The translations under genes and the position numbers were made by a program. From contig RPFO01000104.1 of assembly GCA_009746045.1 (NCBI GenBank), positions 7,680,955-7,744,954 of the forward strand: DNA of 64,000 nucleotides, given 5' to 3'. Position 1 is the stretch's first letter; every line of letters begins with the position of its first letter. The notes under the pieces are model-generated. The model saw only the letters and a list, made by a program, of their open reading frames with translations, was not told the origin of the DNA and searched no databases. Origin of the DNA: Mesostigma viride. Taxonomy: Eukaryota > Streptophyta > Mesostigmatophyceae > Mesostigmatales > Mesostigmataceae. Positions 11,674 to 57,597 of the stretch are shown here, one piece after another.

Positions 11674-11688
11674 CTCCTCCCCCCTCTC
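11674..11688 (-). other. Polypurine tract of the 6.6-kb element
   Basis: On the minus strand GAGAGGGGGGAGGAG directly precedes the TGTTGCG start of the 3' LTR, the expected position for plus-strand priming. It fixes the orientation of the element. Confidence 0.8.
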
Positions 11689-17579: not shown

Positions 17580-17580
17580 C

Positions 17581-22878: not shown

Positions 22879-22944
<66 letters not shown>

Positions 22945-23823
22945 GTGTGGAACTCGGGGGTGGGGGATGACATGCGCCAGCATAATGCGCAGAGTCAGCC
23001 GTTACTGGACCCTTCCAGGGGCTCAGGAGGGCGAGGCTTGCAAGGGAGCAATAAATCGGTGGCAGGTGGGAACGGGAATGGCAATAACAATGGCTGGTTG
23101 GACAGCCCCCAATATCTGCCACCGCAGACGGTGCCGCAACTGGGCGGCAGCAGTCAGCAGCCACCGAGATTCTCATCCGCAGGTGCTGGCAGCAGCAGCA
23201 GCTTGAGCTCCGGAAATAGCTCCCCATCCCTGCTGGGGGGATCCCAATCCCCGCAGCTGCTAGTACCAGACCTCCGGCTGGGCTCTAACTTGGGCAAGGG
23301 GCAAGGCACGGGCGGGGGCGGGCCATCCAGTATGGGGGGGCCACAGGCATACCCTCCCGGGGGCGTGGGCAATGCTTTTGGCGGCGGCATGGGTGGGTCG
23401 CGGGGAGGTGGGGGATACTCGGGCTCTCCCAGCGTGGGCAGCGCGGGTGGCATGGCAGACGCCGCCGGTGGGTCGGGCGCGGGTAACGCGCTGGATATGA
23501 GCGTGCAGTGGAGGGTGGACGAGATACTCAACATTCCGGACCTGGCCGATGGGTACAACATTGGCGACATTGACACCTCCAAGGTGGGTGGTAGCATGGT
23601 TGCCTCCAAGGTGGGTGGTAGCATGGTCGCCCTCAAGTTGGGTGGTAGCAGGGGAAGGAAGCCGTGGGATGCGATATTGGGCAGGTGGGTGCTGCGGTGC
23701 AGGTGATAGCAAGGCAAGGATACAAATGGAGTGTGGACGCAGGGCCCCTGTGTGGTGGTTGGTTGGATGCCACTGCCATCCGCACCGTGGAATGCTGGAT
23801 ACCGCCTCTGCTCGCGTTGGTGC

Positions 23824-34994: not shown

Positions 34995-35252
34995 AGTCCT
35001 CGTTTGAGACGGGGGGGGTCAGAGGCGCGGTTTTGGCGCCAAATTTGGTCCTAGGGTCACTTGGTGGGTTTTGGCGCGAAACTGGGATAGGTACTGAGCG
35101 CGCCAAGCCCCTGGGGTCGACAGGGGTCGACCGTACCTGGAAAATATGAGGCGACGAAAAGTACCTACAATAGCAAGAACATCGCAATGCAATCGAGTGT
35201 TTTGTCGAGTGGCGGCTATGGGGTCGTGCCAGTTCCGAGGCTTGCCTGAATG
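34995..35252. other. Left arm of the split-Gypsy insertion
   Basis: Non-coding sequence between the palindrome and the methyltransferase Gypsy. It contains TTTGGTCCTAGGGTCACT, similar to the right end of the 51.6-53.3 kb block read on the minus strand (GTCCTAGAGGTCACT). That suggests both blocks have related termini. Confidence 0.5.
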
Positions 35253-35395
35253 TGTCGCGTCTGCGTGCCACAATCTCCGGCGCCACCATGGCGGCTGGCC
35301 ACTCAGCTTAATTTGGTAAAACCCAAATGAGCTGAGCTGATGTGCCTGCCTTAACTGCATGCCCTGTGGGGTGGGCGAGGACCTGTCCCATGATT
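35253..35395 (-). repeat. B2 repeat (outer 3' end)
   Basis: 143 bp identical in position and orientation to B1 (36534-36676). It forms the outermost 3' end of the element, ending CGCGACA beside the AATG flank. B is absent from the 5' end of the element. Confidence 0.88.
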
Positions 35396-36531
35396 AAAGA
35401 AAGGAGGGCTCTCAGCCGAGGACAAGGAACTGTCCCTCGTGCCTGATAACCACCTTATTGCCTCCCCTGCTATAGAATAATGCTTTCAAAACACACACTT
35501 TGCACAGTCTGATGATGAAGCCGCACATGCGGAGTTTATTGAGAAAGTTAATACAATTACAACACGTTGATAGTCTCAATATCGATGCACTCCATGCTCA
35601 CGAGCCCGCAGTTAGGCAGCGCTCCATGACATGCTACCGGCCTTGCTCCCAAGGAAAGGGAGAAACACGAAGGCCACTAACGAGAGACTCGAAGAGACTA
35701 CACGCTGCGTGAGAGTCCTCTTCGACTATGAACCAAACCATTCGTCATGCCACACGCATGACACACGCCACACTTGTCAGTCCAGCCAGGAATGCCAAAA
35801 CTATCTTGCTGCCTGAACCATGCGAATAGAAACCGCATTCCAGTTGCCGTCCTGGCTTTCTACCACACATGCCAACAAAAGCAGGAAGGCATCCCGACAA
35901 ATCTAAATTGCTACCCTGTTGCCGATCTCATCTCCTAGAGGCTCCGGCATTTCTGTCCCTGGGAATGTCCGACATTGAGTCACGTCCAGCAAGGTCGAAG
36001 CATAATATCCTTCAGACAATCTGCACGCTCACACCTTGCGTGTGAGTGGCCCAGCAAACATTGCGTCTAATCGTTCCTTTCTAGAAGAAATCCCTTTTTA
36101 GGGCTGCCAGCGATTTCGCATTCATTCCAGCGATCTGGCTCCGCACCGCAAATTGTCCTTTTCCATTTTCTGTCCAGTCCTCATAACGTTGACCCGCTAT
36201 TCTACACCACAAAGACACCTGGCCTGTCAATAGCCTCGGCGCTGTTGAAGTCCAGCAGTCCAGCTTCAGCTCCAGCTGTCCACTAACACGCGTATGATCC
36301 TCTCGACGCTGCACACTTGTGCTGCCGTCCGCTCAAGTCAGTGCTGCGCGCCCAGCTGTGCCTGGCCCGGCGCGCGTGCACGTACACTTTCGTCCGCTCT
36401 TATGCTGCAAGTGCTAGTGTCCCCCCCGGTCACTAGCCTTTGTCGAAAATGCGTAGAAGACAAATTCCTTGCGCACGTCACCGGTCTTGTGCATAGTGGG
36501 CGCCCGGATGACATAGCGCGCGTCCGTGACA
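35396..36531 (-). repeat. A2 repeat (3' LTR-like)
   Basis: 1136 bp, nearly identical to A1 (44845-45981). It starts TGTCACGG and ends CTTTCTTT on the minus strand. It contains a 15-nt sequence complementary to the site after A1. Confidence 0.92.
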
Positions 36532-36533
36532 GC

Positions 36534-36676
36534 TGTCGCGTCTGCGTGCCACAATCTCCGGCGCCACCATGGCGGCTGGCCACTCAGCTTAATTTGGTAA
36601 AACCCAAATGAGCTGAGCTGATGTGCCTGCCTTAACTGCATGCCCTGTGGGGTGGGCGAGGACCTGTCCCATGATT
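36534..36676 (-). repeat. B1 repeat (between polypurine tract and A2)
   Basis: Same 143 bp as B2. With the two bases GC it joins A2 in the perfect 10-bp palindrome GACAGCTGTC. On the minus strand it directly follows the polypurine tract. Confidence 0.88.
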
Positions 36677-36685
36677 CCCCCCCTC
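36677..36685 (-). other. Polypurine tract of the methyltransferase Gypsy
   Basis: The minus strand reads GAGGGGGGG directly before B1, 18 bases after the pol stop. No purine tract lies directly before A2. Plus-strand synthesis should therefore start at B1, making the reverse-transcribed LTR equal to B plus A. Confidence 0.65.
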
Positions 36686-36702
36686 GCTGGCGACCGGCCC
36701 CA

Positions 36703-39700
36703 TCACGAAGACAGCGATCGTACCAAGACAAGGGCAGCGGTGACCGCAGTCAAGCTGCGGGAGGTAAACTGCGCAGCGGTGCACACTGGACAAAACCAAT
36801 CCCCCTCCGGAATGCTGGTGACCACGGGCTGCAAGCACTGCATGTGCCAACCACAGTTACACTGATCACACAATAACATGGACTCCGCCTGATCGACCCG
36901 GTGACAAACCTGACACTGGGCGTCCTTGACTCGGCGAGATGTGTGCGGTTGGAGGTCGTGGACCAAATTGGGCAGTGAGCAGGGACTGAGATTGCTGAGG
37001 TTGTCTGTCGTACGGCTCCCGTCGGCGCCCTCCAAAATTGCCACTCCCGATGGTTTGATAGCCACAATGCGCAAAATGGTGGGCCCCGCCTCCACATCCA
37101 AAGTGTGCTTCAGCTGAGTGCGCAGGAAAACATACTGCCCTGGCCTAAACCGCAGCTGGCGAGCCATGTATGCGCCCCCCCGGCGCTGAGCGTAACGCAG
37201 GGAGTCCCTGTGCTGAGCAATGAACAAGTTGTTCATCGCGATGGGCATGACCTTCTTAAAAGTCTCTGCCCTGGCCAGCACCTCAACCAAAAATTGCTGA
37301 GCGTTGTCGAAGGCCATGGGTTCGGGGTGCGCAACCTGTGCCTCCGTAGGCAAAAGAGGATTACGCCCGAACAGAAGGAAATACGGGGAGAAGGTAGCGA
37401 GAGACTCCTGGGGAGACATGCGATAACCCATGGCAATCCATGCCAACTCGCGATCCCACCTGGCCGACTCCGGCACCTGCAGGCTCCACTTGCGCAGCGC
37501 CTGCTTGACGGTCTGCACCAATCTCTCAGCCAAACCATTGGCCTGAGGATGCTCCCGAGAAGTGCGACGGTGATCAATAAGACATCCATCCAGCAACTCC
37601 TGGAACTCACCCCTGAACTCACCACCCTGGTCCGTGACTACCTCCGCGGGAGCCCCAAACCTGGTGATGATGTCTGCAAAATGCTTCGCTGTGGTAGCGG
37701 CATGCTTGTCAGCAATGGGGATCAACTCAACCCATTTGCTAAAGCTCTCCACGCATACCATGACATAGAGGTTGCCGTCAGGGCTCTCCTGAAACGGCCC
37801 GCACAGATCGACGTGCCAGCGATAAAACAAGCCCTTGATGGGAAGCGACATCAGCTCCTTGGCACCATGATCTGCGCTAAAGTTAGCCTTGGTTCGAGCA
37901 CACGGGACACAGCTGGCCACTACCTGGGCCACTGTGTGTCGCATGTTATTCCACCAATAGCTGGTCCGTACGAGGCTGAGCGTGCGATTGCCACCCAAGT
38001 GACCATACCGCTCGTGGTACGCCTGCACTATAGCAACGCGCTTGTCAGGCGGTGGGACGACCACCCTACGCTTGCCCAACAGCTTGTACAAAACCCCATC
38101 TTCCCAACCATAGGTTGCAGCCCTGTGCTGCACCCTGTTCAACTCCGTCGCCTTCTGAGCAGGAGTCCAATCGACTGGAGTAGGAGTCAAGACAGCACCC
38201 TGCACTTGCTCCAAAACTCGACCATCTAGCCAGATATCAGCGGTGTAGCAATCAGCAAGAGAGCTACGCGCTAAGAGAGCCTGCACAGCGATCAGCTGCT
38301 GCAGAGAAGGATCAATGTCAAAGGACAGAGACCTACCCTCTTCCATAGCGCACACAGCTTTGGATGGCGTGAATGGCGACGGCCGCACCGGGTCGTCGCT
38401 GATGCCGAAGTCCGCCACAGAGTACTCGACACTGCGCCACCACGCCTCCTCCTCATCGTCGGCCGCATACCCAGCAGCGTTCACAAAGACCACAGAACCC
38501 GACGAGCCCTCGGCACCCATGGCCCGGGCTCCAGTGTGGTCAACAGTGGTAGGCATGGCGTATCGGGATAGCACATCGGCGTTGACATGGTCCTTGCCGG
38601 CCCGATGCACAATGGTCATGTGGTACTCCTGGATAATCATGGCCCATCGGGCGAGCTTACCCGTCAGGTTGGTGTTGGTCATTAGCCACTGAAGCGGCTG
38701 GTGGTCTGTCACCAGAGTAAACACGCGCCCAACTAAATACGGGCGAAAGTGCTTGATGGCCCACACCACAGCCAGTGCCTCCCCCTCATAGGAAGAATAC
38801 CGGCTCTCCGCTGGGTTGTTGCTGCGACTAGCATAAGCAATAACGTGCTCGCGCCCATCACCATCCTTTTGCGCCAAGACCGCACCCAGTCCTACCTTGG
38901 ACCAGTCGGTATATAACACAAACGGCAAAGCATAGTCAGGGGCGCGCAGAATCGGGGCCGACGTGAGCTCCTGCTTGATTGTCTCGATGGCGCGTTGCTG
39001 TGCGGGACCCCACGCCCACACGCACCCCTTCTTGAGTAACTCGGTCAAGGGCTTCACCTTGCTGCTGAAGTTCTCAATGTAACCTCGGTAATAGCCAGCC
39101 AAACCCAAATACGCCCGCACCCCTGAGACATCCGTGGGTACGGCGGCCTGCACAATGGATTCGACCTTGGCGGCATCAGGCGTCCGGCCACCCGGCACAA
39201 TCTGATGACCAAGGAATGAGAGGGTCCGCTGGGCGAACTTGCACTTCTCAGGGTGCAGCCGCATATTATGCTCCTCGAGAGCCAAGCGAACCTGCTCCAA
39301 GTGCGCCAGGTGCTCCTCAAATGTCGCGCTAAAGACGATTACATCATCAATGTAACAAGCGGCGAAAGGAAGACCTGCAAGCACTTTGTCCATAGCTCGT
39401 TGGAAAACAGCACTAGCGTTGCGGTGCCCAAAGGGCATGCGCACCCACTCATACAAATTGCCGCCCCCCCAGAATGCAAGCTTCCGCTGATCCTCCGGCG
39501 CAACTGCGATCTGATGAAAGCCGCTACGCAGGTCCAGCGAGGACACAAACTTCACATGAGGAGATATCTTATCCAGGACATCATCCACACGTGGCATGGG
39601 GTAACGGTCCACGGGTGTGTGTGCATTCAGCAACCGCAGATCGGTGGCCATGCGCATACCCGTCCATGCCCCGGTGATAGCGTCCTTCTTGGGCGCAACG

Positions 39701-39822
39701 ACAACGGCAGCGGCATAGCTGGAGGAAGATTGCCTGATGATACCGGCATCCTCTAACTCCTTGCATTGCTCGGCTACAAAATCCAACTCGGCCTGACTCA
39801 GGCGATGCTGGCGTCGGAACAA
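36703..39822 (-). CDS. Gypsy pol: reverse transcriptase, RNase H, integrase, PHD finger
   Basis: About 1039 codons, complete in all catalytic residues. RT (about 1-200) has LRSGFHQI and YIDD at 157-160. RNase H (about 300-420) has D306, E348 and D373 (TDH). The integrase zinc domain has H603, H608, C638 and C641. The catalytic core has D672, D731 and E766 (D35E spacing). The C-terminus carries a C4HC3 PHD finger: C970, C973, C985, C988, H993, C996, C1011, C1014. A chromodomain is absent. The frame opens just after an in-frame TGA and has no ATG at its start. The beginning of the RT region (GGTMRVPLDTDT) lies in the upstream ORF, so one base seems lost near 39815. Intact, it would be one polyprotein with the protease-methyltransferase part. 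Confidence 0.93.
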   Translation of the reverse strand: MFRRQHRLSQAELDFVAEQCKELEDAGIIRQSSSSYAAAVVVAPKKDAITGAWTGMRMATDLRLLNAHTPVDRYPMPRVDDVLDKISPHVKFVSSLDLRSGFHQIAVAPEDQRKLAFWGGGNLYEWVRMPFGHRNASAVFQRAMDKVLAGLPFAACYIDDVIVFSATFEEHLAHLEQVRLALEEHNMRLHPEKCKFAQRTLSFLGHQIVPGGRTPDAAKVESIVQAAVPTDVSGVRAYLGLAGYYRGYIENFSSKVKPLTELLKKGCVWAWGPAQQRAIETIKQELTSAPILRAPDYALPFVLYTDWSKVGLGAVLAQKDGDGREHVIAYASRSNNPAESRYSSYEGEALAVVWAIKHFRPYLVGRVFTLVTDHQPLQWLMTNTNLTGKLARWAMIIQEYHMTIVHRAGKDHVNADVLSRYAMPTTVDHTGARAMGAEGSSGSVVFVNAAGYAADDEEEAWWRSVEYSVADFGISDDPVRPSPFTPSKAVCAMEEGRSLSFDIDPSLQQLIAVQALLARSSLADCYTADIWLDGRVLEQVQGAVLTPTPVDWTPAQKATELNRVQHRAATYGWEDGVLYKLLGKRRVVVPPPDKRVAIVQAYHERYGHLGGNRTLSLVRTSYWWNNMRHTVAQVVASCVPCARTKANFSADHGAKELMSLPIKGLFYRWHVDLCGPFQESPDGNLYVMVCVESFSKWVELIPIADKHAATTAKHFADIITRFGAPAEVVTDQGGEFRGEFQELLDGCLIDHRRTSREHPQANGLAERLVQTVKQALRKWSLQVPESARWDRELAWIAMGYRMSPQESLATFSPYFLLFGRNPLLPTEAQVAHPEPMAFDNAQQFLVEVLARAETFKKVMPIAMNNLFIAQHRDSLRYAQRRGGAYMARQLRFRPGQYVFLRTQLKHTLDVEAGPTILRIVAIKPSGVAILEGADGSRTTDNLSNLSPCSLPNLVHDLQPHTSRRVKDAQCQVCHRVDQAESMLLCDQCNCGWHMQCLQPVVTSIPEGDWFCPVCTAAQFTSRSLTAVTAALVLVRSLSS

Positions 39823-42740
39823 AGGGTGTCAGTGTCCAATGGAACACGCATGGTCCCACCATTGAAACACCCCAGTTCATCACTTGTGAAAGCGAAGGCC
39901 CCCCTTGCAGTGCCTAGCCACTTTAGCATGGCTGAGCGCTGCGCATCAGAAAGGTGTTCGCCAATAGCCCAGGGGTGCGTATCCGCGGGATCACCCACAG
40001 CTACCGCATGTGCCTCAAGATGCGGCGCCCTAGCCGCATCGTCGTGGAACAAGGAAAAGGCTGCCACGCCTGGTGTGACACCCACCGCCGGAGCCTCGCG
40101 TGCCGCACGGTGTATTACCCGATGCAGCGTGGGCTCGCCGGCCAGCACGGTGCTGGTCAGCAGGGCGGTCATGAGAATGATAGTCCACACCTGTCGCAGA
40201 CGCCACCCCCATGCTGATGAAGTCCCCGTCGCTGCAGGGCGCTTCAGTTTGGCTGCGCGCGCCTCAACCTGCTGAGGCGGATTGGCTGGGGACGCCCCCC
40301 CAGACTGGCGCACGGCAACCGATGCAAGCAGCACATACCCGACCTGCAACACCGACATAGCCTGGCCTATCAAAGACCAGCGCTCACTCTCGAGCACGCC
40401 CGGCAGCGCCGAGGCCCCGACATGAAAACCCATGCTGGCCTCACGAAATTCTGCGGGTGGCTGCACCAACAGACCGGTGGTAGTGTCCCAAACGAGACCC
40501 TTACCCCGATCACGGTATGCTGTCGACCCTTGGTAACTGACCAGGGTCGGCAGTGCACACATGGGGCTCCCGACCCGGTTGACGCGTGCATACGGTGGGC
40601 GATCCTCGCTATCCACCTTCTGCGTGACTAGGTGGGAAGGCAATGCTACCTCCGCAGACACACTCGGATGCTGCCTTGCTACGGCCCCCAAGACCGCCTG
40701 CACATCGGTCGCACACGCCACGTTGGTCCAATAGGCACGCAAACGATGCGTGAGCCCACCCAGCCCTGCGTTGTCACACACGATGGGCTCCCCCAGGAGT
40801 GCCACGATTGTAGCCCAGTCCTCCCGCACCGCCTGATGTGGGCTGTCACCCGCCACAACGTTCTCAAACAGATACGCAGGCGGATGGGGCTGACGCGACT
40901 GCAACAGTCCCACCACACGCAACAGTTCCCAGAACAGCGCGCTACGCGGATCGGCTAGCCCCCGCCCTTGCCCTGCCTGGCTCAGGCCCTGGCACTCCCA
41001 ACCCGCAATTACCAAGTCGATGGCATGATGCCTGCGCAACAACTGCTGCACCTGCACCTCACCGATGGCTCGGATATCTTGAGGACATTCCCCAAACGGG
41101 TCACGCCATGCTGATGGCGGAAACTGCGCGGGATACTCTCGCGACAACACGCCACAGTGACTGAAGTACACCTGACGCGCCTTGTGCGATGGCTCTACCG
41201 CGATGAGTTTACGGCACACGCCGCCTGCGGCCAAAAAGCCTGCAATGCCCCCTCCGATCCCCGCAAACAGTTCCAACACTACCGCACCCTTGGCAAAATC
41301 AGGGGCCTGCGGTAAGATTGCAGCAGAAAAATTACCTTGGGCCTCCGAGACACCCGGTTGCAGCAAAGTGAGGCCATGGCTGGCCATCTGAGGAATGGTG
41401 ATGACGGCTTCAGTTACCCGCTTGCGCATAGCCAGCTGCCGCGTGGACGTCACAGCATCCAGCGACCACTGCGTGCGCATCTTGGCAATGCTCGCCGTTG
41501 GCTGGGGCAGCACCGTCCGATGCTTGTCCCACGCCGATGAGCCCGCCGCCCGTACCTCCACCATGCTGACCTCCACCACGCCCGCAGCCGCGGAAGGGTT
41601 GAGGCGTGCAGCCCCGGCTGAAGAACTGAAGCATGAGACCGGCACGCTGGCCCGCTTCAGGCCAGCCCCATCCCAATCAGGGATGTAAGATGCCTCCTCC
41701 GCCCTATAGTCCACCTGAACCATGGCGCGAGCAAGGACATCCACCCCGAGTAGTGCGGAATATCCACACTTGTTGACCACCAGCGCATACGCGGACACGG
41801 TGGTCATGCTAGAGGCGCGCAACGGATTGAAAATCACGTTGACTTTAACCGCCGTCATAGCGTACGGCTTACTAGCCGGACCCTGCCAACCTGACACAGA
41901 CACGGGGCTTTCCACTAAGCCACCGTTCTCGTAGGTCAGGTTCAGCATGGTGGCCAAGTCCGTGCTGATGACTAGCGGCTGAGCACCGCTATCAAGCTTG
42001 ACTGCGCCAACCAACGGACATGTCACCATGTCGCTCCATACATCTCCACAGGCTCCAACTGCTTGGAACGCCATGGACGGCTCACCATTGGGGTATGGAA
42101 CCACCGTGGGAACCTGGGGGACTGCACTAGTGCGCTGCTGGCTACTTGTGCTGACCACTCCCGCTTGCACCACGGGCACTGCGGCTTCTACCGGCTGGCG
42201 CCCGTAGGTGACGGACTCAGAATTGCGCAAGGTGCGCACATCATGCCCATCTGCGAACAACTGGATCTCGGACACAACCGACCCCAGCCACTCAACCCCC
42301 TTCTGCCCGAAGGTGTCGACCACCTGCCGTGCTGAAAACATGGGTACGTCCACAATGAACGGCATTGGGTACACAGGCGCCAATCGCCTACGCTGCTCCA
42401 GCCCAGCAGGGTTCGCATGCTCAAAAGCAGATTGCACCCCAGCCAGCGGCATGGAAAAGGACGCGGGCAACTGCCCGGCAGGCAACATGGGTGCCTGCTG
42501 AAAAGAAAGCGGGCTGCGTGCCTGCTTGCCTTTGGTAGCCTCCGCAGCGTTGATCTCGACGTCACCCGGCATGGGCGCCCAGAATGGGTCCTCCCGGTAC
42601 ACCGTCTCGAATTGGTTGGGGGGCGCCGTCGCCTCCTCACCATGCTTGATGGCAGCCACCTGGGCTTCCATCGAGTCGGTCTTGCCCGCCATCTCGGCGA
42701 AGTGGACCGTCTTGATGCCCGCGGCTGGACACTTGTTCAT
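39798..42740 (-). CDS. Retropepsin plus C5-cytosine DNA methyltransferase polyprotein
   Basis: 980 codons from the first ATG. The open frame extends upstream to the G7 run at 42877-42883 and includes a CCHC knuckle. Retropepsin: LDSGAQPLVIS (Asp250), ALLGVDVL near 330. DNA methyltransferase about residues 483-805: motif I LFAGIGGG (491-498); an acidic turn AVEPS; motif IV GWECQGLS with catalytic Cys583; motif VI FENV with Glu626; motif VIII HRLRAYW (665-671); IX LPTLVS; X GQAMSVLQVGY (792-802). This enzyme class methylates carbon 5 of cytosine in DNA. No CXXC, BAH or PWWP domain is present. A hydrophobic stretch VWTIILMTALLTSTVLA (851-867) follows. The last 35 residues are the start of the RT region, cut off by a frameshift. 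Confidence 0.9.
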   Translation of the reverse strand: MNKCPAAGIKTVHFAEMAGKTDSMEAQVAAIKHGEEATAPPNQFETVYREDPFWAPMPGDVEINAAEATKGKQARSPLSFQQAPMLPAGQLPASFSMPLAGVQSAFEHANPAGLEQRRRLAPVYPMPFIVDVPMFSARQVVDTFGQKGVEWLGSVVSEIQLFADGHDVRTLRNSESVTYGRQPVEAAVPVVQAGVVSTSSQQRTSAVPQVPTVVPYPNGEPSMAFQAVGACGDVWSDMVTCPLVGAVKLDSGAQPLVISTDLATMLNLTYENGGLVESPVSVSGWQGPASKPYAMTAVKVNVIFNPLRASSMTTVSAYALVVNKCGYSALLGVDVLARAMVQVDYRAEEASYIPDWDGAGLKRASVPVSCFSSSAGAARLNPSAAAGVVEVSMVEVRAAGSSAWDKHRTVLPQPTASIAKMRTQWSLDAVTSTRQLAMRKRVTEAVITIPQMASHGLTLLQPGVSEAQGNFSAAILPQAPDFAKGAVVLELFAGIGGGIAGFLAAGGVCRKLIAVEPSHKARQVYFSHCGVLSREYPAQFPPSAWRDPFGECPQDIRAIGEVQVQQLLRRHHAIDLVIAGWECQGLSQAGQGRGLADPRSALFWELLRVVGLLQSRQPHPPAYLFENVVAGDSPHQAVREDWATIVALLGEPIVCDNAGLGGLTHRLRAYWTNVACATDVQAVLGAVARQHPSVSAEVALPSHLVTQKVDSEDRPPYARVNRVGSPMCALPTLVSYQGSTAYRDRGKGLVWDTTTGLLVQPPAEFREASMGFHVGASALPGVLESERWSLIGQAMSVLQVGYVLLASVAVRQSGGASPANPPQQVEARAAKLKRPAATGTSSAWGWRLRQVWTIILMTALLTSTVLAGEPTLHRVIHRAAREAPAVGVTPGVAAFSLFHDDAARAPHLEAHAVAVGDPADTHPWAIGEHLSDAQRSAMLKWLGTARGAFAFTSDELGCFNGGTMRVPLDTDTLCSDASIA
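40326..41294 (-). other. C5-DNA methyltransferase domain
   Basis: Domain span within the preceding ORF. All main catalytic motifs (I, IV, VI, VIII, IX, X) are in canonical order with typical spacing, so it is not circularly permuted. The target-recognition region is compact (about 60 residues between motifs VIII and IX). The motif IV dipeptide before Cys is W-E rather than the usual P-P or x-P. Confidence 0.9.
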
Positions 42741-44548
42741 CAGGTGCCACTTCGTGTCTGCCCCATGCGGCTTCGTGCAGCGGCTTGGACACTCGCGACT
42801 AAGGTGCCCATCCTTGTCGCAAAGGAAGCAGCCCGATTTGCGCGCATCCGTCCTAGTACCCGTCTGTGAGGACGTGCCCCCCCAGCTCGCGTCGGGGCGG
42901 CAGCGTCTTTGTTGCCGCCAGCGGCGTTACCCTGGGTTGCATCATGCGATGAGGCGTTGCGAGACCCCCCTTGGTTCCTGCTAGCACCGTGGCCGCCTTG
43001 CGGGCGCGCTTGTCTTGTGGCAGACGACTCACCCGACTTGGCCTTGGTCAGCGCGTCGACCTTGGCCTGCAGCTCGGCCACCACCGTGCTTACCGAGATC
43101 CGGCCTTGCGCGTGTCGTCGCATCATGGCCCTGACCTCAATGCACAGTGACCGCAATCGCCACGGCTGGCCGTTGGGCGGCGTGGGCAGCTCCATCTCCT
43201 TGGAGCCTAGCGCTTGCAGCCATTTCTGACACGCCAGCTTTTCGGACCAGTCCTCCACTTCGCCGGCGAACTCCATGAGGCGCTCGTAAGATTGCTCCGG
43301 GGTTTCACCCTCGGCTATCTTGAAACTGCGCCACTCACGCTCTGCCTTGATGGTCTCCACCGGGTATTCCTGGCGAAGGAGGCCCCACAGTTCCTCGGCA
43401 GGGTCGACACCATACATGATGTTGTCATAGTCGGGCTGGCCACGCCCGTCGAAGCCGAACCACACGTCCGTGTGACGCGTGTACAGCGAGACCTCTCTCC
43501 ACTGCTCCACCAGCCTAGCCACTCGCCTCAGCGTAAGGCCGTGAAAGAAAAAATGCATGTTGTTCATCACAAACTCATGCATTACAGCGCCTTGCGTAGT
43601 CATGTATTGCAGATCAATCCATGACTTGTACGCGTTGTAGGCCTGCGCCAGCGTGGCCAGATTGCCGGTTGTGGAGAACTTCTCGCGCATGTCCACCCGT
43701 GGTAGGGTGGGCATCTTCGCGCCTTCCGGTATGAGGCGCACCCTTTGCGGGTACTGCACCCCATCGGCATCCTCCGGCGGTCGCTGAGCTGCGCGTCCCT
43801 GCGCCAGCGTGCTTGGTCGTGCTGCCTCCCGTACTCGGAAAGCCAGCGGCGTGGTTATGTCCTCCATGGGCGGAATGCGCCCGATTGGCACACTTGACCA
43901 CCGTGCAGTCGACCCGCCGGTCAGCGCCCCACCGCCTCGCCCAAACGGAATTGAGGCCCCGCCTGGCAGCATGCGTCCTGGTGCACCCCTGTGTGGGTCC
44001 ATCGCGCGCGCCAGCCCTGCCCCGTTCTCCTCGTGCAATCCGTCTCGCGCTTGATCGAAAGGCAGGCGCCTGGGCGCCAGCGTATACTCGCCCCGTGGCT
44101 GACCATCCGCCTCACCAAGCAAGTCGTGTTGGGTTAGCGACCCAGCCAAAACCCCCGGTTCCATCGAAGCCCTTCCCGCCGCATTACCTGAGGTTGGCGG
44201 CTGGTCCCGCTCCCTCGGCTCCGCGGCAACACCACTGGGGCCCGGCATCGATGCCTGCCCGTCCCATGGTGTGGACTGCAGATGACGACCCTCTACGGCC
44301 ACCAATCTGTCGGTCACTTCCCGCATCTGCAGCGCCAATTGCTGCTGCAACTGTTGCGACTGTTGCTGCATCTGCGCTTGCATCTGCGCGAACAGCGCCA
44401 CCATACTCAGCGGCGCTTCTTGGTCGCGACTCTCACCCACTGCGGGTACGGCGGGAGGAATCCCGCCATTCGACCCCGGAGCGGACGTGTCGGCATCTGC
44501 TCTATTTGCATCTGCCATGGCTCGAGTCTGCGCTCGCGTCAGTGGCAT
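42740..44548 (-). CDS. Gag polyprotein of the methyltransferase Gypsy
   Basis: 602 codons from the first ATG (44548). N-terminal Ala/Thr/Pro-rich segment, then a Gln/Met-rich coiled coil (AQMQAQMQQQSQQLQQQLAL) near residues 50-85. The capsid-like region is about residues 290-500 (LAQAYNAYKSWIDLQ to KLACQKWLQALGSKE), resembling the Retrotrans_gag fold in helix spacing. The expected CCHC knuckle (CFLCDKDGHLSREC, 42789-42830) lies in the -1 frame, the frame of the methyltransferase ORF. The junction is a run of seven G. This gag frame ends 160 bases further on in an Arg-rich tail. Gag would package the RNA in virus-like particles. Confidence 0.8.
   Translation of the reverse strand: MPLTRAQTRAMADANRADADTSAPGSNGGIPPAVPAVGESRDQEAPLSMVALFAQMQAQMQQQSQQLQQQLALQMREVTDRLVAVEGRHLQSTPWDGQASMPGPSGVAAEPRERDQPPTSGNAAGRASMEPGVLAGSLTQHDLLGEADGQPRGEYTLAPRRLPFDQARDGLHEENGAGLARAMDPHRGAPGRMLPGGASIPFGRGGGALTGGSTARWSSVPIGRIPPMEDITTPLAFRVREAARPSTLAQGRAAQRPPEDADGVQYPQRVRLIPEGAKMPTLPRVDMREKFSTTGNLATLAQAYNAYKSWIDLQYMTTQGAVMHEFVMNNMHFFFHGLTLRRVARLVEQWREVSLYTRHTDVWFGFDGRGQPDYDNIMYGVDPAEELWGLLRQEYPVETIKAEREWRSFKIAEGETPEQSYERLMEFAGEVEDWSEKLACQKWLQALGSKEMELPTPPNGQPWRLRSLCIEVRAMMRRHAQGRISVSTVVAELQAKVDALTKAKSGESSATRQARPQGGHGASRNQGGSRNASSHDATQGNAAGGNKDAAAPTRAGGARPHRRVLGRMRANRAASFATRMGTLVASVQAAARSRMGQTRSGT
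42877..42883 (-). other. G7 run, possible -1 frameshift site
   Basis: The gag frame reads GCT GGG GGG GCA across it. A one-base backward slip opens the frame that carries the zinc knuckle, protease and methyltransferase. It could be a programmed slip or a simple homopolymer indel. No pseudoknot was tested. Confidence 0.5.
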
Positions 44549-44829
44549 GCACCAGCTGACCGATGGGCAAAACAAGAACCAACAAGCCTAGGTTTCGCTG
44601 AGAAGAAGCAACAACCAAAGGCTTTATAACAGGTGTCAAGGATAACGACTCGACTAGCCTGCCAGAAAAAGACAAGAGCCAGCAAATTCTGGCTAGTTCT
44701 ATTTTCTTAAAATCTGTCTCAAGACACTTCCTTTACAAACTGTCAGCCAGGCCGTTCCCTGTACTGCTGATGGTTGCTAAACACTAAAGCCAACGTCTTG
44801 GCTTCGAACAGAAGGAAGCAGACTACCGG

Positions 44830-44844
44830 GTAGTCTCTTCGAGT
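44830..44844 (-). other. Self-priming site directly after A1
   Basis: In transcript sense ACTCGAAGAGACTAC begins at the first base after A1. It is perfectly complementary to GTAGTCTCTTCGAGT at 45150-45136 inside A1. No tRNA-type site (TGGTAT) is near. The site also overlaps a small hairpin (AGACTAC-CCG-GTAGTCT). Confidence 0.7.
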
Positions 44845-45981
44845 AAAGAAAGGAGGGCTCTCAGCCGAGGACAAGGAACTGTCCCTCGTGCCTGATAACC
44901 ACCTTATTGCCTCCCCTGCTATAGAATAATGCTTTCAAAACACACACTTTGCACAGTCTGATGATGAAGCCGCACATGCGGAGTTTATTGAGAAAGTTAA
45001 TACAATTACAACACGTTGATAGTCTCAATATCGATGCACTCCATGCTCACGAGCCCGCAGTTAGGCAGCGCTCCATGACATGCTACCGGCCTTGCTCCCA
45101 AGGAAAGGGAGAAACACGAAGGCCACTAACGAGAGACTCGAAGAGACTACACGCTGCGTGAGAGTCCTCTTCGACTATGAACCAAACCATTCGTCATGCC
45201 ACACGCATGACACACGCCACACTTGTCAGTCCAGCCAGGAATGCCAAAACTATCTTGCTGCCTGAACCATGCGAATAGAAACCGCATTCCAGTTGCCGTC
45301 CTGGCTTTCTACCACACATGCCAACAAAAGCAGGAAGGCATCCCGACAAATCTAAATTGCTACCCTGTTGCCGATCTCATCTCCTAGAGGCTCCGGCATT
45401 TCTGTCCCTGGGAATGTCCGACATTGAGTCACGTCCAGCAAGGTCGAAGCATAATATCCTTCAGACAATCTGCACGCTCACACCTTGCGTGTGAGTGGCC
45501 CAGCAAACATTGCGTCTAATCGTTCCTTTCTAGAAGAAATCCCTTTTTAGGGCTGCCAGCGATTTCGCATTCATTCCAGCGATCTGGCTCCGCACCGCAA
45601 ATTGTCCTTTTCCATTTTCTGTCCAGTCCTCATAACGTTGACCCGCTATTCTACACCACAAAGACACCTGGCCTGTCAATAGCCTCGGCGCTGTTGAAGT
45701 CCAGCAGTCCAGCTTCAGCTCCAGCTGTCCACTAACACGCGTATGATCCTCTCGACGCTGCACACTTGTGCTGCCGTCCGCTCAAGTCAGTGCTGCGCGC
45801 CCAGCTGTGCCTGGCCCGGCGCGCGTGCACGTACACTTTCGTCCGCTCTTATGCTGCAAGTGCTAGTGTCCCCCCCCGGTCACTAGCCTTTGTCGAAAAT
45901 GCGTAGAAAACAAATTCCTTGCGCACGTCACCGGTCTTGTGTATAGTGGGCGCCCGGATGACATAGCTCGCGTCCGTGACA
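44845..45981 (-). repeat. A1 repeat (5' LTR-like)
   Basis: 1137 bp. Starts TGTCACGG at 45981 on the minus strand next to AATG. It should contain the promoter. If self-priming holds, the RNA 5' end lies near 45150. CAATAAA on the minus strand near 44985 could be a poly(A) signal used in A2. Confidence 0.92.
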
Positions 45982-45986
45982 AATGT

Positions 45987-46975
45987 TATAGGGCATTATT
46001 TTGCCCCGGACGAAGACAGCATTTTAGATCGTCATCTAGTGATTTCGAAGATGCTATTCTTCACGTGCAGGTGCTTTGTATATGTCGAAAATTTTGTTCA
46101 TGAACGGATTTTGGCATTGTTGAAGAAAATCTGAGAGCTACGTAGATCGCATGATAGGTCAGTTCGCAGTTCGGTTTTACAATTTCTTTTTCCGCCCAGG
46201 CGCTGCGGACTGATATCGCGAGTATGGGTTATGGTACGCTTCTGGGCTTATGGGCGACATGGGGAGAAGAGGGACCTGGGCAGTTGCATGCGACAAAGAG
46301 TCTCTATTTTCTCGTCGTGATGTCGCAGTCGCGCCTGGCGAAAACCAGGGCGAGCGCGAGCCATATTTTTCTTTTGCCGCAAGGCTGGGTGCTTCCCACG
46401 CGTCACCGTCCTTTAATATATATTTCTTGAGCTGGCCCGCGCAGCTGGCGGCCTGGGCGCACGTCAAGAGCAAGGTTCCGACTGTCATTCTCAACCGCAT
46501 CGTTCTAAGTAAGCGTGTTAAGCGGATTGTAACCTATAACTCTCGCAGACGTGATCATTCCGGTTGCTTTCAATGCCCAACTTCGTGGTTTTGATTACGT
46601 TTATGTCCGGGGAATAACGGAAGTTTGCTGGGCAGTACTTTCTTTTCCCGCTGCGTCACTGAAAAGGTAAACGGCCTTGCGTTATCAAAACAGCAGCGAC
46701 TAAAAAGTCGCTGTGCTTAATTGCGATGTGGTAGTTTGATTCAACACATATACTGCCTTGTTGCTGAGAAGTTTTTCAAGGCTTGCTGGTATGTTGCCCA
46801 TATGTTTCTAATGCTTCAACTCATGTCCAAGTGATCAAGGCTGGCTTGGAAACTTGAGCTTGTCATGTTTACATTGTGCTTGTGTTACAACTTGTGCCTC
46901 TTTGCAGTATATGTTTCATATATAACGTAAGTGTCATATATAACGTAAGTGTGCAGTCTTTTCGCCCCAGGGGGA
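45987..46975. other. Unassigned, interior of the split-Gypsy insertion
   Basis: No recognised gene. Open frames at 46250-46594 (plus) and 46177-46500 (minus) overlap antisense. A 19-bp unit CATATATAACGTAAGTGT is duplicated at about 46917-46955. Confidence 0.4.
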
Positions 46976-48494
46976 CTGCTCTGGCTTCCCCGCGGCTATC
47001 CCGGGGGCATTGGCGCGGGCGCGTGGTTTCTCGTGCCTAGGCGTCCCTGTGGGTGACCCTGACTACGTCGAAGAGGAGCTCCGGGCCACCGTGGAACAGC
47101 GCACCCATGTCCTCGAGACTTGGGCGCGCCTCAAGGACCCCCAGACCAAAGGGCTCCTCCTGTGGTTTTGCGCCCACCCGCGGGTGGTTCACTGGCTCCG
47201 TGGCGCTCCCCCCCACTTGGTGCGGCTTGCCGCGGAAGGCCATGACGAGCGCATTCAGGCCGCCTTGCAGGTGCTCCTCCCCGGCCCTAGCCTGCCAGCT
47301 CACTCCATGCGCTTGGCCACCCTCCCCTGCCGCATGGGCGGGTGTGGGCTCACCCGCGCCGCCCGCCTCGCCCCCGCCGCCTTCCTTGGCTCTGTTGCTC
47401 AAGCCTGGGCGGAGATCCGCCGGTTGGTCCCCAGCGCCGTCAGCGCCATTCCCGACTTGGTCACCCCATCCCCCTTCCCCTTTGTGCAGGCTGTGCAGGA
47501 TTCTTACCTCGGGATCCAGCAGGCTTGCGACCTCGTCCGCCCCGCTCAGGCCGTCCACCGTCGCCTGCCCCGGGGCACGCCCGGCGTGTCTACTGTCGTC
47601 AGTCCTAGTGTCTTCCCTGCCTGCGTTCATGAAAAACAACAAAAGACCTACGCGGGTATACTACACTGTGCCGACTGGATGGGTCTGCACGCGAGCTTGA
47701 ACGATCAGGGGAAGGCTTGGCTTCACTCCGTTTCCCTTGAGGGGAGCGTGGGGTCCGCATTCCTGCGCGCCCTCCCCATGAGCCCTTTGTTCACGCTGGT
47801 TCCGGCCCTTTACGCCATCGCTCTCCGCCACCAGCTCTTTGCCCCGCAACCTCTCATCACGGCGGGTGCGTCCTGCGGCAGCTGCGGGCTTGCTCTGGAT
47901 ACTACTGGGACGCACTACATCGCGTGCATGGGTGGCCAGCAGAACCAGAACTGGTTCCTCTATCTCCATACCGCTCTCCTCCGGGTGGTGTGTGCCATGG
48001 TTCGGTCGGTCTTTCCCCACTCCACCATCAAGTGCGAGGACGCGGATGGGGCCGCCCTCTACTCACCCAACCACCGCCCCGACATTACCGTGCTTGACTA
48101 CGACGGGCAGGGTTGCCACCTGCTCATCGATGTCTCCGTGGCTCGGCCGCTTTCCGGTCGCCACATCCTCCGGGCGGCTGTGGATGCCGGCGCTGCTGCC
48201 ACTGTGGCTGAGCGCGACAAGTTTGCCTCCTACGGCAATGTGGGGCCCCACCGGGTCATCCCCTTTGTCCTTGAGGAGTTCGGGGCCATGGGCCCCAAGA
48301 CAGCGGAGTTTTTCCACGAGTGCTGCCAGCGCCGTGAAGACCGCCTCGACCTCGAGGGTCAGACCGCCCCGTGGTCGGCCCGCACGTGGTCCTCGTATTG
48401 GCGGCAGCGCCTGTCACTCGCCCTCACTCGCACCGTGGCTGATGTGTTATTCCGCCGCACCCGGGCCGACTTTGTCGCGACCCATGCGGTCTAG
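46976..48494 (+). pseudogene. 5'-truncated LINE ORF2 with restriction-like endonuclease domain
   Basis: One open frame of 494 codons (47010-48494) without the polymerase core. It starts downstream of the catalytic motifs, in the region typified by LPCRMGGCGLTRAARLAPAA. Further on, CGSCGLALDTTGTHYIAC is a CCHC-type zinc motif (C-x2-C-x8-H-x3-C). It is followed by RPDITVLDYDGQGCHLLIDV, the PD...D core of a PD-(D/E)XK restriction-like endonuclease, and by AERDKFASYG with the late Lys and Tyr. This order is known from R2/CRE-type and many algal LINEs. The intact frame suggests a recent truncated insertion. Domestication is possible but unsupported. GC is clearly higher than in the flanks. Confidence 0.75.
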
Positions 48495-49207: not shown

Positions 49208-49229
49208 AAATGTCCTCATTTGAGGACAT
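49208..49229. repeat. Right copy of the 22-bp near-palindromic repeat
   Basis: Identical to 34973-34994. The reading frame of the Gypsy protease runs into it from the right and resumes beyond the left copy. Confidence 0.9.
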
Positions 49230-49548
49230 TTTCTTGGTGATTAGACAACAGGTATACAGGGTGAGGAAGGACTGGCAATTGCAGCTCCTGTACCAGAGAA
49301 GTAGTAGAGATGTAGTTACTCCCTGCACCAGAGTCAATCATGAAGAGACATACAGGCTGGGCCAAAGGGACTGGCACGTTTAACAGCCTAGCTTGAAACT
49401 TCAAAAGCTGACTGGGGATAGGAGGGCCAAAAGAGGTGACACGGTGCCAGAAACAGACATGCAGGTTGTTCACGGGACGAACATGCACATCAGGCAAACC
49501 AGTCAGCTGCACTGCTGGACGTAGTCCTGCTGGAGCTGGGGGCTCCAC
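49216..49548 (-). pseudogene. Gypsy protease, N-terminal half (second Gypsy element)
   Basis: Minus-strand translation FMIDSGAGSNYISTTSLV holds the retropepsin catalytic Asp-Ser-Gly. The preceding stretch is the Pro-rich spacer after Gag. The frame ends within the near-palindrome. The rest of the protease is at 34661-34972. Confidence 0.75.
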
Positions 49549-49652
49549 TAGTTTTTTGGCAACTCAGGGGGTTGGTCTGAAGACGAGCTCCCCACGAAGG
49601 TTGCACCTGCTGCTCATCTGGATCATCCTCTCCCCCATCTCCCTCGTCCTCC

Positions 49653-51306
49653 TCAGCTAGAAGGTGCCAAAGAGCGTTGACCATCCTCCTCCTGTCTTGT
49701 CTGCTGAAGGTCTTTGGCTGGAAGGGTCCCCTGCCTGATGTCTGAAAGTTGGGCTTGAACCCAGGCTGCATCCTGTGGTCGCTCTGGTTCACCCCTGGAG
49801 GTAGATGGCCTGGTGAAAGGCAGCACCCCCTGCTGAGGGCCTCTGGTGTCAGCAGGAAACTGGTCTCGTTTGGGGCAATCCCGTGCAAAGTGCCCAAGCT
49901 GGCCACAGGTGAAACAGGCACCCTTGGATTGCTCCAGGGCATGAAGCTCCTCCACCACAGCATTCAGCTGGTTCATGGGCTTCTTGACAGCAGATGCTTG
50001 GTTGCCTGCAGTGGGCTCCCACTTGAGGGAAAAATCGGGTACACGGCACAGCGTAAGGGCATAAGACAGCACGGTATCCCACTTCCACTCGACATAGTCG
50101 TAAGGGGAGAAGTGCTTGTCAATATCCACCCTGACTTGAGGGGAGAGCCCATGAAGGAACCTGTGAAGAGCCTCAGAATCAGAACACTGGGGGATTTTGG
50201 CCCTCAGGTTGGTAAACGTCTCCGCGTATTGTGGTAGCGTCAGGCCTGCCTGGGTACAGTTGGCCAACGCGCCCCGGTCCAGACGGAGCTGGTCCTGGGG
50301 AAGTACAAAACGTCGAAATGAAAGCATGAGGGATGGTAAATCCTTGCAAGTATTATCTGCCGTGGAACGTAAAAACTCATCAAACCTGTCGGCTGCACTG
50401 TCCGGCGCTCATTCGCTGACGAACCATCTTCTTCTGGATGTCCAGGGAAAGTCGTTCTTCCGCTCTCTTGCCATAGTTGGCGAAATGGATAGCGAACACG
50501 TCCTGGAATCGAGTAGAGAAATGATCGAAACTGCGGTGAGTTAGATTAGTGAGCGACAGCTTGTCTACGGATTCGATTTTTGGAAATGGTGGGGCTGAAC
50601 CTTGATGCGGTGGTATAGTGACGGTCACGGGGACGTCGCTGGCGGGCGTGGTGAAGGTGACCGAGGTCGTCTGCGTTGGATCCTGCCTATCGCTATCCTG
50701 CGTCTCATTCCTCGTAGTAACTGCGGTACGATAAGGTAGAACCCCTCTGTCACCCAACCTAGGAGCCTCTCTCCCCACTCCAGCAACCATGTCACGCATG
50801 GCCTCCTCCTCCTCCTCAATTCTCTGACGAAGTCGTCCCATGCACATCCTGTTCCACCTCCTCCACCATCTTTCTATACATTGCTGCGTGTTGTTCATCT
50901 TGTTGTAACCTGAGCTTAGCTGCTGAGAGGCGATCCGCTGCTAATCTGGTCCCGTCTCGTCCTGGCGTGGTATTAACCGGAAAGAGAAATGATGATGATG
51001 CACTCGGCACAGGACTCGTTCGCGCGCTTGTGATCCTGGGCGACAGCGACCCTCCTCGACCCACGCGGTTAGCGATGGCTCGCCTGGTTGGAGACCAGAC
51101 GCAATGACGGAAAACTTGGGCCCAACAGACAACGAGGCCCGCCTCACTTCAGACATAGAAGTACGATTAAAATCAAGTTGACGCCGTGGAGTAGTAAGAG
51201 CTAGTAGTTGTCTCAGCACCTTCCCTAGTAATAAGTTCATGAGATGATAATGGATCTCTTGCACTTGGATCAGTAGGGTGTAAAGGTGATTGTGTCTTCG
51301 AACCAC
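49653..51306 (-). pseudogene. Gag of the second Gypsy element, frameshifted
   Basis: Three minus-strand frames in order: 50941-51306 and 50816-51064 (N-terminal, Ser/Arg-rich), 50380-50898 (with a Glu/Arg coiled coil RLRQRIEEEEEAMRDMV), and 49653-50327. The last contains the Retrotrans_gag-type block TLPQYAETFTNLRAKIP and LHRFLHGLSPQVR and the CCHC knuckle CFTCGQLGHFARDC. Frameshifts between them inactivate it. Unlike the methyltransferase Gypsy, the knuckle here is in the capsid frame. Confidence 0.75.
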
Positions 51307-56730: not shown

Positions 56731-57597
56731 TTTCTGATCAGGCACTCCGCAAAGGTGAAAACCGCTTGCGTTCAGGGCCGGGCCGCGGAAAACGCGGAAA
56801 AACGCGATCTGCAAGTGAATCCGACCGTAATCGAACTGGGGACCTCTCGCACCAACTTTCGCTGACTATAGGACGGACGTCTCCGGTTACCATGGCATCG
56901 CCAACTTACACCTACAGTCATCCGCAAAAGTTCTCCTTTCCGGGGAGTGATGCAAGCCTGTCGGATTTGGTACTAGATAAATCACTCGAGATCTGTGTGT
57001 AGGAGTACTACACACGTGTCCACTCGAGACTTGTTCAGTCTCGAAACGTGAGACGGGCTGAACACGGCTGGATCCTTCTTTATTAGAAGGGGGCGTAGCC
57101 GGTACTAACGAAATCAGCCAAGCGTATATTCTGATCAGGCACTCCGCAAAGGTGAAAACCGCTTGCGTTCAGGGCCGGGCCGCGGAAAACGCGGAAAAAC
57201 GCGATCTGCAAGTGAATCCGACCGTAATCGAACTGGGGACCTCTCGCACCAACTTTCGCTGACTATAGGACGGACGTCTCCGGTTACCATGGCATCGCCA
57301 ACTTACACCTACAGTCATCCGCAAAAGTTCTCCTTTCCGGGGAGTGATGCAAGCCTGTCGGATTTGGTACTAGATAAATCACTCGAGATCTGTGTGTAGG
57401 AGTACTACACACGTGTCCACTCGAGACTTGTTCAGTCTCGAAACGTGAGACGGGCTGAACACGGCTGGATCCTTCTTTATTAGAAGGGGGCGTAGCCGGT
57501 ACTAACGAAATCAGCCAAGCGTATATTCTGATCAGGCACTCCGCAAAGGTGAAAACCGCTTGCGTTCAGGGCCGGGCCGCGGAAAACGCGGAAAAAA
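56731..57597 (-). repeat. Tandem array of a 397-bp unit, 2.2 copies, inserted as a block
   Basis: CTGATCAGG starts at 56734, 57131 and 57528, a period of exactly 397 bp, with almost no differences between units. The block splits a retroposon 3' UTR between short GTGT duplications. The unit carries a tRNA-like stretch on the minus strand (CAGTTCGATTACGG resembling a B box) and several strong hairpins: GTGTGTAG/CTACACAC; TGTTCAG...CTGAACA enclosing GTCTC/GAGAC; and a CCTTCT/AGAAGG stem. Small frames (91 codons) are repeated with it and are not convincing genes. A single unit copy is at 59874-60778. Confidence 0.85.

Follow-up and report, generated by a model that had tools for sequence, protein, structure and literature searches.

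The genome of Mesostigma viride harbors a young Gypsy retrotransposon family in which a C5 cytosine DNA methyltransferase (MTase) is built into the polyprotein, as the first-pass annotation had proposed; the copy described here occupies positions 35253-45981 on the minus strand of the window, that is, the whole stretch of 64,000 nucleotides analyzed. The kind itself, a Gypsy element bearing a DNMT3-type MTase, is already known from published work on Klebsormidium (de Mendoza et al. 2018, PMC5890265). What goes beyond that case is the membership of one clade, the repeat order A-genes-B-A-B bounded by target duplications, and the side-specific alleles of the repeats. With moderate confidence, we read the whole as a recently active Gypsy family equipped with a DNMT3-like MTase and a PHD finger, with a probable single capture of the MTase, presumed collinear copying of the element and putative methylation of its own DNA.

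On the minus strand, the coding order runs from gag through protease and C5 MTase to reverse transcriptase (RT), RNase H and integrase with a C-terminal PHD finger. The element is flanked by a CATT target-site duplication (45982..45985 on the 5' side and, identically, 35249..35252 on the 3' side) and opens with TGTCACGG, the start of the first long repeat, A1 (44844..45981). The gag ORF (42740..44587, 615 aa from stop to stop) gave zero matches in the Pfam search and was labeled by its position in the element. It is followed, in the -1 frame relative to gag, by ORF2 (39798..42926, 1042 aa), which comprises a CCHC zinc knuckle (42783..42833; PF00098, E 8e-4, its 19.8 bits narrowly missing the curated cut-off of 20.8), a protease assigned from its active-site motif LDSGA (41982..41996), with none of the protease families above threshold in the Pfam search of ORF2, the MTase domain (40338..41288, residues 547-863) and the start of the linker to RT. 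ORF3 (36703..39828, 1041 aa), again in the -1 frame relative to ORF2 in the window copy, carries RT (39199..39693; PF00078, E 4e-28), RNase H (38623..38937; PF17917, E 8.9e-39) and an integrase with H2C2 zinc-binding and DDE core domains (37546..38055; PF17921, 1.1e-16, and PF00665, 4.2e-11), in agreement with the earlier assignment of this frame. The polyprotein closes with a PHD finger (36781..36915; PF00628, 4.7e-9), which the first-pass annotation had overlooked and whose closest PDB matches are BAZ2B/BAZ2A, LID, WSTF and ATXR5 (BAZ2B at 2.6e-16).

Downstream of the genes, a polypurine tract (PPT) assigned by sequence, GAGGGGGGG (36677..36685), abuts the 143-bp repeat B1 (36534..36676), which is joined through GC to the second long repeat, A2 (35396..36531), the B1-GC-A2 junction forming the palindrome GACAGCTGTC. 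The element ends in CA with B2 (35253..35395, 143 bp), identical to B1. The earlier dating by LTR similarity was right in substance, since A1 and A2 of this copy differ by 4 mismatches, one of them at the repeat border, and one gap over a 1141-bp alignment (99.56%). Observed/expected CpG is 0.85 in the element and 0.78 and 0.84 in the flanks, which indicates no CpG depletion.

The MTase motifs occur in canonical order in a single frame behind the protease motif, as had been stated: LDSGA lies at residue 311 of ORF2, and LELFAGIGGG (551), ECQGLS (644), FENV (687), HRLRAYW (727) and GQAMSV (854) represent motifs I, IV (ECQ), VI, VIII and X, with a Pfam DNA_methylase match at E 2.3e-11. By profile and predicted fold, the domain is DNMT3-like. 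A profile built with its relatives matched DNMT3A/3B best in the PDB and DRM next, while the single sequence matched DRM (4.3e-5), then HaeIII and HhaI, with DNMT3A/3B absent up to E 0.1. The fold comparison was run on a second structure model, the first (pLDDT 57.8) being poor and discarded; among the best 50 matches the predicted fold is closest to DNMT3A/3B and HhaI scores about 3 Z units lower, while DRM and DNMT2 fall outside those 50, which excludes neither. A viral or phage source of the MTase was considered and found unsupported: viral_contigs yielded zero relatives in scans with the Mesostigma MTase and, for close relatives only, with ORF3 by itself, and of the 303 phage records matched by the MTase the best 20 reach 24-39% identity over part of the domain, with none of the 303 covering 80% of it.

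The assembly contains at least 44 near-identical copies, scored with the ORF2 protein that includes the MTase, and the search for further copies suggested earlier thus rules out an accidental insertion or misassembly. Together with the low divergence between A1 and A2, these copies suggest recent activity of the family. All catalytic residues had been reported as present, which holds for the MTase; in the window copy, ORF3 lies in another frame than ORF2, and the stop that separates them is common to 21 of the 44 scored copies. In the other 23 the frame is open beyond this stop, and 14 of these reach 2074 aa. No canonical slippery heptamer lies in frame at either the gag/ORF2 or the ORF2/ORF3 change, the heptamers present being out of frame, and the overlap of gag and ORF2 shows no unusual RNA folding (z -0.81), so that a programmed -1 shift through a canonical heptamer is unsupported.

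We examined 41 of the 44 scored copies (all except C1810, C598 and C637), of which 12 were incomplete, 7 unresolved and 22 resolved. Among the resolved copies, 18 have TG..CA ends and 4-bp target duplications. The order A-genes-B-A-B, unlike that of ordinary LTRs, is found with its own target duplications in 14 copies, which makes it a standing form, while 4 of the 22 consist of A-genes-B only. Four further A-genes-B-A-B copies have no target duplication; in two of them one flank is the same as in another copy, and in a third B precedes A1. B1 and B2 are near-identical 143-bp direct repeats across the family, and A1, A2, B1 and B2 are inherited separately among copies. A1 and A2 carry different, side-specific alleles that have been maintained across independent insertions, with exceptions at two sites: the allele split at site 108, a run of 7 or 8 G, is missing in 6 of 23 copies, and at the gap site 1051 three copies go one way and three the other. 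In the textbook LTR cycle an element has two terminal LTRs that are identical at insertion because one template makes both, and the side-specific alleles conflict with this cycle. The element does show the Ty3/Gypsy domain order protease-RT-RNase H-integrase with a DDE integrase, the MTase being inserted between protease and RT, and the best relatives in the RT grouping are Gypsy-type Pol proteins (the RT and Pol trees contained no Copia or DIRS RTs as a control). The TG..CA ends and short target duplications likewise agree with Ty3/Gypsy. The two identical terminal LTRs expected of Ty3/Gypsy are contradicted by the A-genes-B-A-B order and the shared side-specific alleles. The first-pass annotation had overlooked this departure of the repeats from conventional LTRs: the element is Gypsy by its Pol and not by its repeat structure.

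Phylogenetic analysis placed all MTase-bearing elements included in the Pol trees in one clade, with members from Mesostigma, Klebsormidium, Closterium, Chromochloris, Tetrabaena and environmental samples. The Klebsormidium nitens protein P0044 (KFL_009030040; MTase-RT-RNase H-integrase), which we take to be a KnitGypsy copy, falls in this clade with the Mesostigma element (UFBoot 91), the two not being sisters. The first RT tree covered 95 of 121 RT rows, leaving out 26; the Pol tree omitted P0053, P0083, P0113 and rows with less than half of the columns; and the MTase tree, built without host DNMT3 sequences, omitted P0009, P0100, P0111, short matches and 5 of 10 database MTases. This last tree is weak at depth and disagrees in places with the Pol tree: for elements with the MTase placed after RNase H and before the integrase, the sister group is Closterium by MTase (93) and Klebsormidium by Pol (87). 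The single clade fits one capture of the MTase by a green-algal Gypsy lineage, which is probable, with one later relocation of the domain. The close outgroups of the clade, the Gypsy proteins P0090 and P0105, have a PHD finger in Pol according to Pfam, and no MTase was found in them although over 300 aa of protein precede the RT; the PHD finger was perhaps present before the capture. Methylase-encoding Gypsy and DIRS elements of green algae and charophytes have been mentioned in general terms (PMC6338049), and an independent MTase acquisition was inferred for the K. nitens lineage (PMC5890265); with one clade and a probable single capture, that acquisition appears to have been placed too late.

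Among the relatives named by the first-pass annotation, the comparison with Klebsormidium was well chosen, while the Symbiodinium elements are, as described in PMC5890265, of DIRS and LINE type and not Gypsy; nor is the Mesostigma element an isolated third case, given the clade it shares with the Klebsormidium one. KnitGypsy-Dnmt3, from a different class of streptophyte algae, is likewise a Gypsy element with a DNMT3-type MTase in Pol, and the figure legend describes its repeats as DIRS-like A-coding-B-A-B, matching by description the Mesostigma order; the portions of the account consulted do not mention a PHD finger, target duplications or separate inheritance of A1 and A2 (PMC5890265). SymbioDIRS-Dnmt3 shares the DNMT3-type MTase in Pol and split repeats but has a tyrosine recombinase in place of the DDE integrase and 4-bp target duplications seen here, and SymbioLINE-Dnmt, a C5 MTase-bearing retroelement as well, is a LINE with its MTase in ORF1, assigned to an orphan group rather than DNMT3 (both PMC5890265). 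The environmental polyprotein P0002 (JGI, 1770 aa) has an N-terminal MTase of the same family, about 29-31% identical to that of Mesostigma, and sits among the deep MTase branches; RNase H is among its listed Pfam domains, RT was recognized by eye only, and Gypsy RT and integrase profiles gave no match, making it non-Gypsy by these profiles. DIRS and other split-direct-repeat elements have A-coding-B-A-B repeats, a tyrosine recombinase and no target duplication, and collinear copying has been proposed for them; the Mesostigma element resembles them in its A-genes-B-A-B repeats and differs in its DDE integrase and 4-bp target duplications.

A collinear, DIRS-like and perhaps circular intermediate joined by the DDE integrase fits these observations best. 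The element would be copied collinearly, its ends being joined on B1-A2 as template or splint. In the product, perhaps a circle, the DDE integrase would then cut the palindromic B-A junction; forms with two repeats would yield A-genes-B-A-B and those of one unit A-genes-B. Several observations count against our overall reading: 21 of 26 listed A-B junctions have the standard form, which speaks against fresh joining of ends in each cycle, and the exceptions at sites 108 and 1051, the frame change in 21 of 44 copies with no in-frame slippery heptamer, the DRM match of the single MTase sequence, the lack of CpG depletion and the disagreement between the MTase and Pol trees also weigh on that side. 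Tentatively, and with somewhat less than even confidence, we extend this to a Gypsy element that does not regenerate LTRs, whose end-joined or circular form with the B-A palindrome would be self-methylated and then opened at the palindrome by a PHD-tethered integrase, which would insert either form with a 4-bp target duplication, the whole clade behaving likewise. An ordinary LTR Gypsy that took up a host DNMT3 independently in Mesostigma, its odd order arising by recombination or two-LTR circles in a few copies, would explain three observations: the PBS- and PPT-side borders coincide with those of a conventional B-A LTR, B precedes A1 in C133 and C111, and one A-B junction, in C1413a, has an additional G at the PPT border, as fresh joining of PPT-defined ends predicts. 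The 14 copies with their own target duplications, the survival of side-specific alleles across insertions and the single clade of MTase-bearing elements all speak against this explanation, which is already strained by the copy survey (order, target duplications and alleles) and which we consider unlikely.

Spread at the DNA level, in which the integrase puts excised or episomal double-stranded DNA back into the genome without an RNA stage, would keep A1 and A2 distinct and predicts the separate inheritance of all four repeats, but RT and RNase H are present in the Mesostigma element and its listed relatives, and we regard this route as equally improbable. The A-genes-B copies may instead be products of B1/B2 recombination in the longer copy rather than direct integrations, a possibility that comes fairly close to an even chance: near-identical 143-bp direct repeats are available and such a deletion would retain the target duplication, even if 4 of 22 resolved copies in a very young family is many for repeats of this length.

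The MTase would travel with Pol in the particle and methylate the new DNA before integration, so that element DNA would arrive pre-marked, while the PHD finger may steer integration toward chromatin with unmodified H3 tails. A test of the K. nitens enzyme in yeast did not reveal activity, an outcome its authors regard as inconclusive, and both RNA substrates and host silencing have been discussed for the published elements (PMC5890265). An activity of the MTase on RNA, or a role mainly in exposing the element to silencing by the host and thereby limiting its damage, instead of one in shielding incoming DNA, nonetheless seems rather doubtful to us, in view of a profile and fold that are DNMT3-like and not DNMT2-like and of the 5mC reported in M. 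viride genomic DNA, mainly at CG (PMC6947507).

Overall, our results tie a published, seemingly isolated methylase-bearing Gypsy element to one old green-algal clade, in which a likely reader (PHD) and a likely writer (DNMT3-like MTase) of chromatin marks reside within one Pol, so that the purpose of the enzyme becomes testable by comparison. Moreover, the separate inheritance of the repeats in an element with a DDE integrase contradicts the textbook LTR cycle and hints at a mixed mechanism.

The Gypsy element carrying the DNMT3-like C5 methyltransferase (MTase) extends over 10,729 bp of the minus strand of the window (45981 to 35253), starts with TG, finishes with CA and has CATT next to either end. 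In element order, and entirely on the minus strand, a repeat of about 1,138 bp (A1) is followed by a 615-aa gag frame, by ORF2 with a zinc knuckle, a protease motif and the MTase (40338-41288), and by ORF3 with reverse transcriptase (RT), RNase H, integrase and a PHD finger. The purine tract GAGGGGGGG, read from the sequence, separates ORF3 from a 143-bp repeat (B1), after which come GC and the second repeats, A2 and finally B2. The first-pass annotation had proposed a C5 methyltransferase built into a Gypsy polyprotein, with a protease motif upstream and RT, RNase H and integrase in the next frame, and these domains were all found. B1 and B2 are identical in this copy, while four mismatches, one of them at the repeat border, and one gap separate A1 from A2. 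Directly 3' of A1 (44800-44843, minus strand), a TGG primer-binding site (PBS) was absent and the palindrome AGACTACCCGGTAGTCT was present.

The search for further copies suggested by the first-pass annotation covered 440 Mb of assembly in 2,243 contigs and scored at least 44 copies of ORF2, all 100% identical after rounding, which rules out an accidental insertion or a misassembly. The best protein match of ORF2, which stands for four sequences, belongs to the gene set of Mesostigma viride (Mesvir1) and covers 80% of the query part at 99% identity; two further Mesostigma proteins carry a diverged MTase, with 67% and 62-63% identity over the parts covered. M. viride is therefore the presumed host. 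The break between ORF2 and ORF3 (39798-39828) is a polymorphism common to copies that still multiplied, since the frame ends at the window's stop in 21 of the 44 scored copies and stays open past it in 23. In 14 of the latter it reaches 2,074 aa, so that ORF2 and ORF3 form one frame; because this is about the length of ORF2 plus ORF3, we infer that gag lies in a separate frame in these copies as well. In relatives such as P0021 and P0022, the linker in which the break falls runs uninterrupted into RT as part of a single protein. No canonical slippery heptamer was found in frame at either the gag/ORF2 or the ORF2/ORF3 frame change, and RNA folding at the former showed nothing unusual.

The window also holds a fragment of another Gypsy element (49219-50408, minus strand), consisting of a gag that includes a zinc knuckle and of a weak match to a protease, as well as two 692-bp direct repeats (10984-11674 and 16889-17580; 99.3% identity, spacing 5.9 kb) that lack TG..CA ends and belong to another element with unusual termini. 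In addition, there is a CAA triplet array of about 316 units with 99% matches (918-1863) and a perfect 397-bp tandem repeat of 2.2 copies (56732-57596). A frame with a B-box zinc finger (22558-23703, plus strand; PF00643 at cut-off) is perhaps a host gene. The long frames at 46944-48491 (plus strand) and 58809-59678 (minus strand) had no match in a Pfam search; the second contains a YADD motif and may be a LINE remnant.

Ends were retrieved for 40 further copies, giving with the window copy 41 of the 44 scored, of which 22 had both ends resolved, 7 were unresolved and 12 were incomplete. At their TG..CA ends, 18 of the 22 end-resolved copies show a perfect 4-bp target duplication; these comprise 14 of 18 with the order A-genes-B-A-B and all four with A-genes-B only. 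Among the copies lacking it, C2217 and C488 have one flank in common with another copy, C111 carries B-GC ahead of A1, and C998b is the fourth, also A-genes-B-A-B. The B-GC-A junction read GACAGCTGTC in every copy in which it was inspected. The A-B junction was standard in 21 of 26 listed copies; C1413a has an extra G, C1239 differs by one base, and C133 passes into other sequence. In C1847 and C378 (L060 and L075), the latter judged from its first bases only, an inverted PBS/A1 stretch follows A2, as if a cDNA strand switch had occurred. C133 and C111 (L065 and L072) differ from other copies with an A1 start in having B-GC directly upstream of A1, and C133 continues into sequence that resembles by eye the end of a diverged sister family.

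The two A repeats carry different alleles across insertions. At a G run that is either 8 or 7 long, A1 has the G and A2 the deletion in 17 of 23 copies with both repeats, among them every one of the 14 A-genes-B-A-B copies that have a target duplication of their own. When all copies are counted, the G occurs in 24 of 30 A1 and the deletion in 29 of 30 A2. Fisher's test gave p 1e-9 (first 23 A1 and 21 A2), which is no clean probability because the copies are related. Side-specific substitutions also occur at sites 14 and 76 (five copies), 992 (four) and 716 (three), always in copies with their own target duplication, and at sites 276 and 1095 (four and three copies, two at each site with their own duplication). 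Two gap sites are less clean, site 1051 being split three copies against three and site 1148 lying at the end of the repeat; one B2-only allele is common to two insertions. During the LTR cycle, a single set of template pieces gives rise to both new LTRs, which are identical at the start, so side-specific alleles should not outlast a single round. Since much of the mean A1/A2 difference of 0.23% (12 copies) is inherited, repeat divergence overstates the age of the element.

Overall, the integrated ends are the start of A and the end of B, the A repeats are inherited separately, and copies take the form A-genes-B-A-B or A-genes-B. We infer an intermediate covering A1 through B2, whose ends would be joined across B1-A2 and whose joined DNA the DDE integrase would cut at the palindrome. 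The end of A coincides with the PBS side and the start of B with the purine tract, which fits the residue of a conventional cycle, present or past, and the extra G at one A-B junction hints that fresh end joining may still occur. The MTase would methylate the new DNA before integration, a putative role that we consider the most likely one, at somewhat less than an even chance, the competing explanations being that the enzyme serves self-silencing of the element or that it methylates RNA. A CG mark is plausible in this alga because 5mC in M. viride is reported chiefly at CG in the sections consulted of PMC6947507.

The PHD finger of ORF3 has its nearest PDB match in BAZ2B (2.6e-16), followed by BAZ2A, LID, WSTF and ATXR5. 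Unmodified H3 tails are bound by BAZ2 PHD fingers, and in animal DNMT3 the ADD domain binds them too. Should the PHD finger of the element also recognize such tails, its Pol would combine reading and writing in the manner of DNMT3, which is offered as a lead.

In the ORF3 search, 8,000 candidates were scored and 1,471 proteins reached E 1e-30 or better; domains were counted in the best 120 of these. An MTase was present in the same protein in 30; because many of the others begin near RT, this figure would miss any MTase encoded in a different frame. Profile searches found a PHD finger in 37, with both domains in 13. Within the same 120, the MTase precedes RT in 13 proteins, including Klebsormidium nitens KFL_009030040 and Closterium, and lies between RNase H and integrase in 17, including Chromochloris and Tetrabaena. 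Two Gypsy proteins of Tetrabaena socialis (P0059 and P0070) have a decayed MTase at the latter position.

In the first RT tree (95 rows: 21 with MTase, 15 clearly without, 59 undecidable), all 21 MTase carriers and none of the 15 fell in one clade (support 0.6), which together with P0090, a PHD-bearing element lacking the MTase, had support 0.995. A larger Pol tree (114 rows) gave UFBoot values of 91 and 100, respectively, and recovered the RNase H-MTase-integrase arrangement as monophyletic (100) and nested among before-RT elements. The next outgroup joined P0105, PHD-bearing by Pfam, with two Closterium proteins (P0091 and P0099) that have no PHD finger among their Pfam domains, so the suggestion that the PHD finger was perhaps gained before the MTase leans mainly on P0090. 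In the MTase tree, the RNase H-MTase-integrase group had support 78 and deep nodes were weak; its sister was Closterium (93), as against Klebsormidium in the Pol tree (87). The deep branches include P0002, not Gypsy by the profiles used. This environmental 1770-aa polyprotein has the same MTase family ahead of RNase H, with RT recognized by eye, neither being of this Gypsy type. Pol and MTase distances were correlated over all 26 shared taxa (r 0.54) and over 24 taxa without the decayed Tetrabaena pair (r 0.70), and none of 5,000 permutations reached the observed value in either case.

The simplest reading of these trees would be one MTase capture, perhaps after that of the PHD finger, and then one shift of position. 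We make no claim of vertical descent from a green-plant ancestor, because host-to-host transfer could also spread such a clade. An independent acquisition was inferred for the K. nitens lineage in the portion consulted of PMC5890265, and it would need revising under vertical descent and host transfer alike. The same portion already describes a DNMT3-bearing Gypsy with DIRS-like repeats, and a 2025 survey (PMC12344493), in its consulted sections, restates that report without the Gypsy case and terms the LTR class Copia. In the open-access literature searched, we found no mention of MTase-bearing Gypsy elements from Mesostigma, of a PHD finger in their clade, or of repeats that are inherited separately. 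The question of replication mechanism that separate repeat inheritance raises thus appears to be new.
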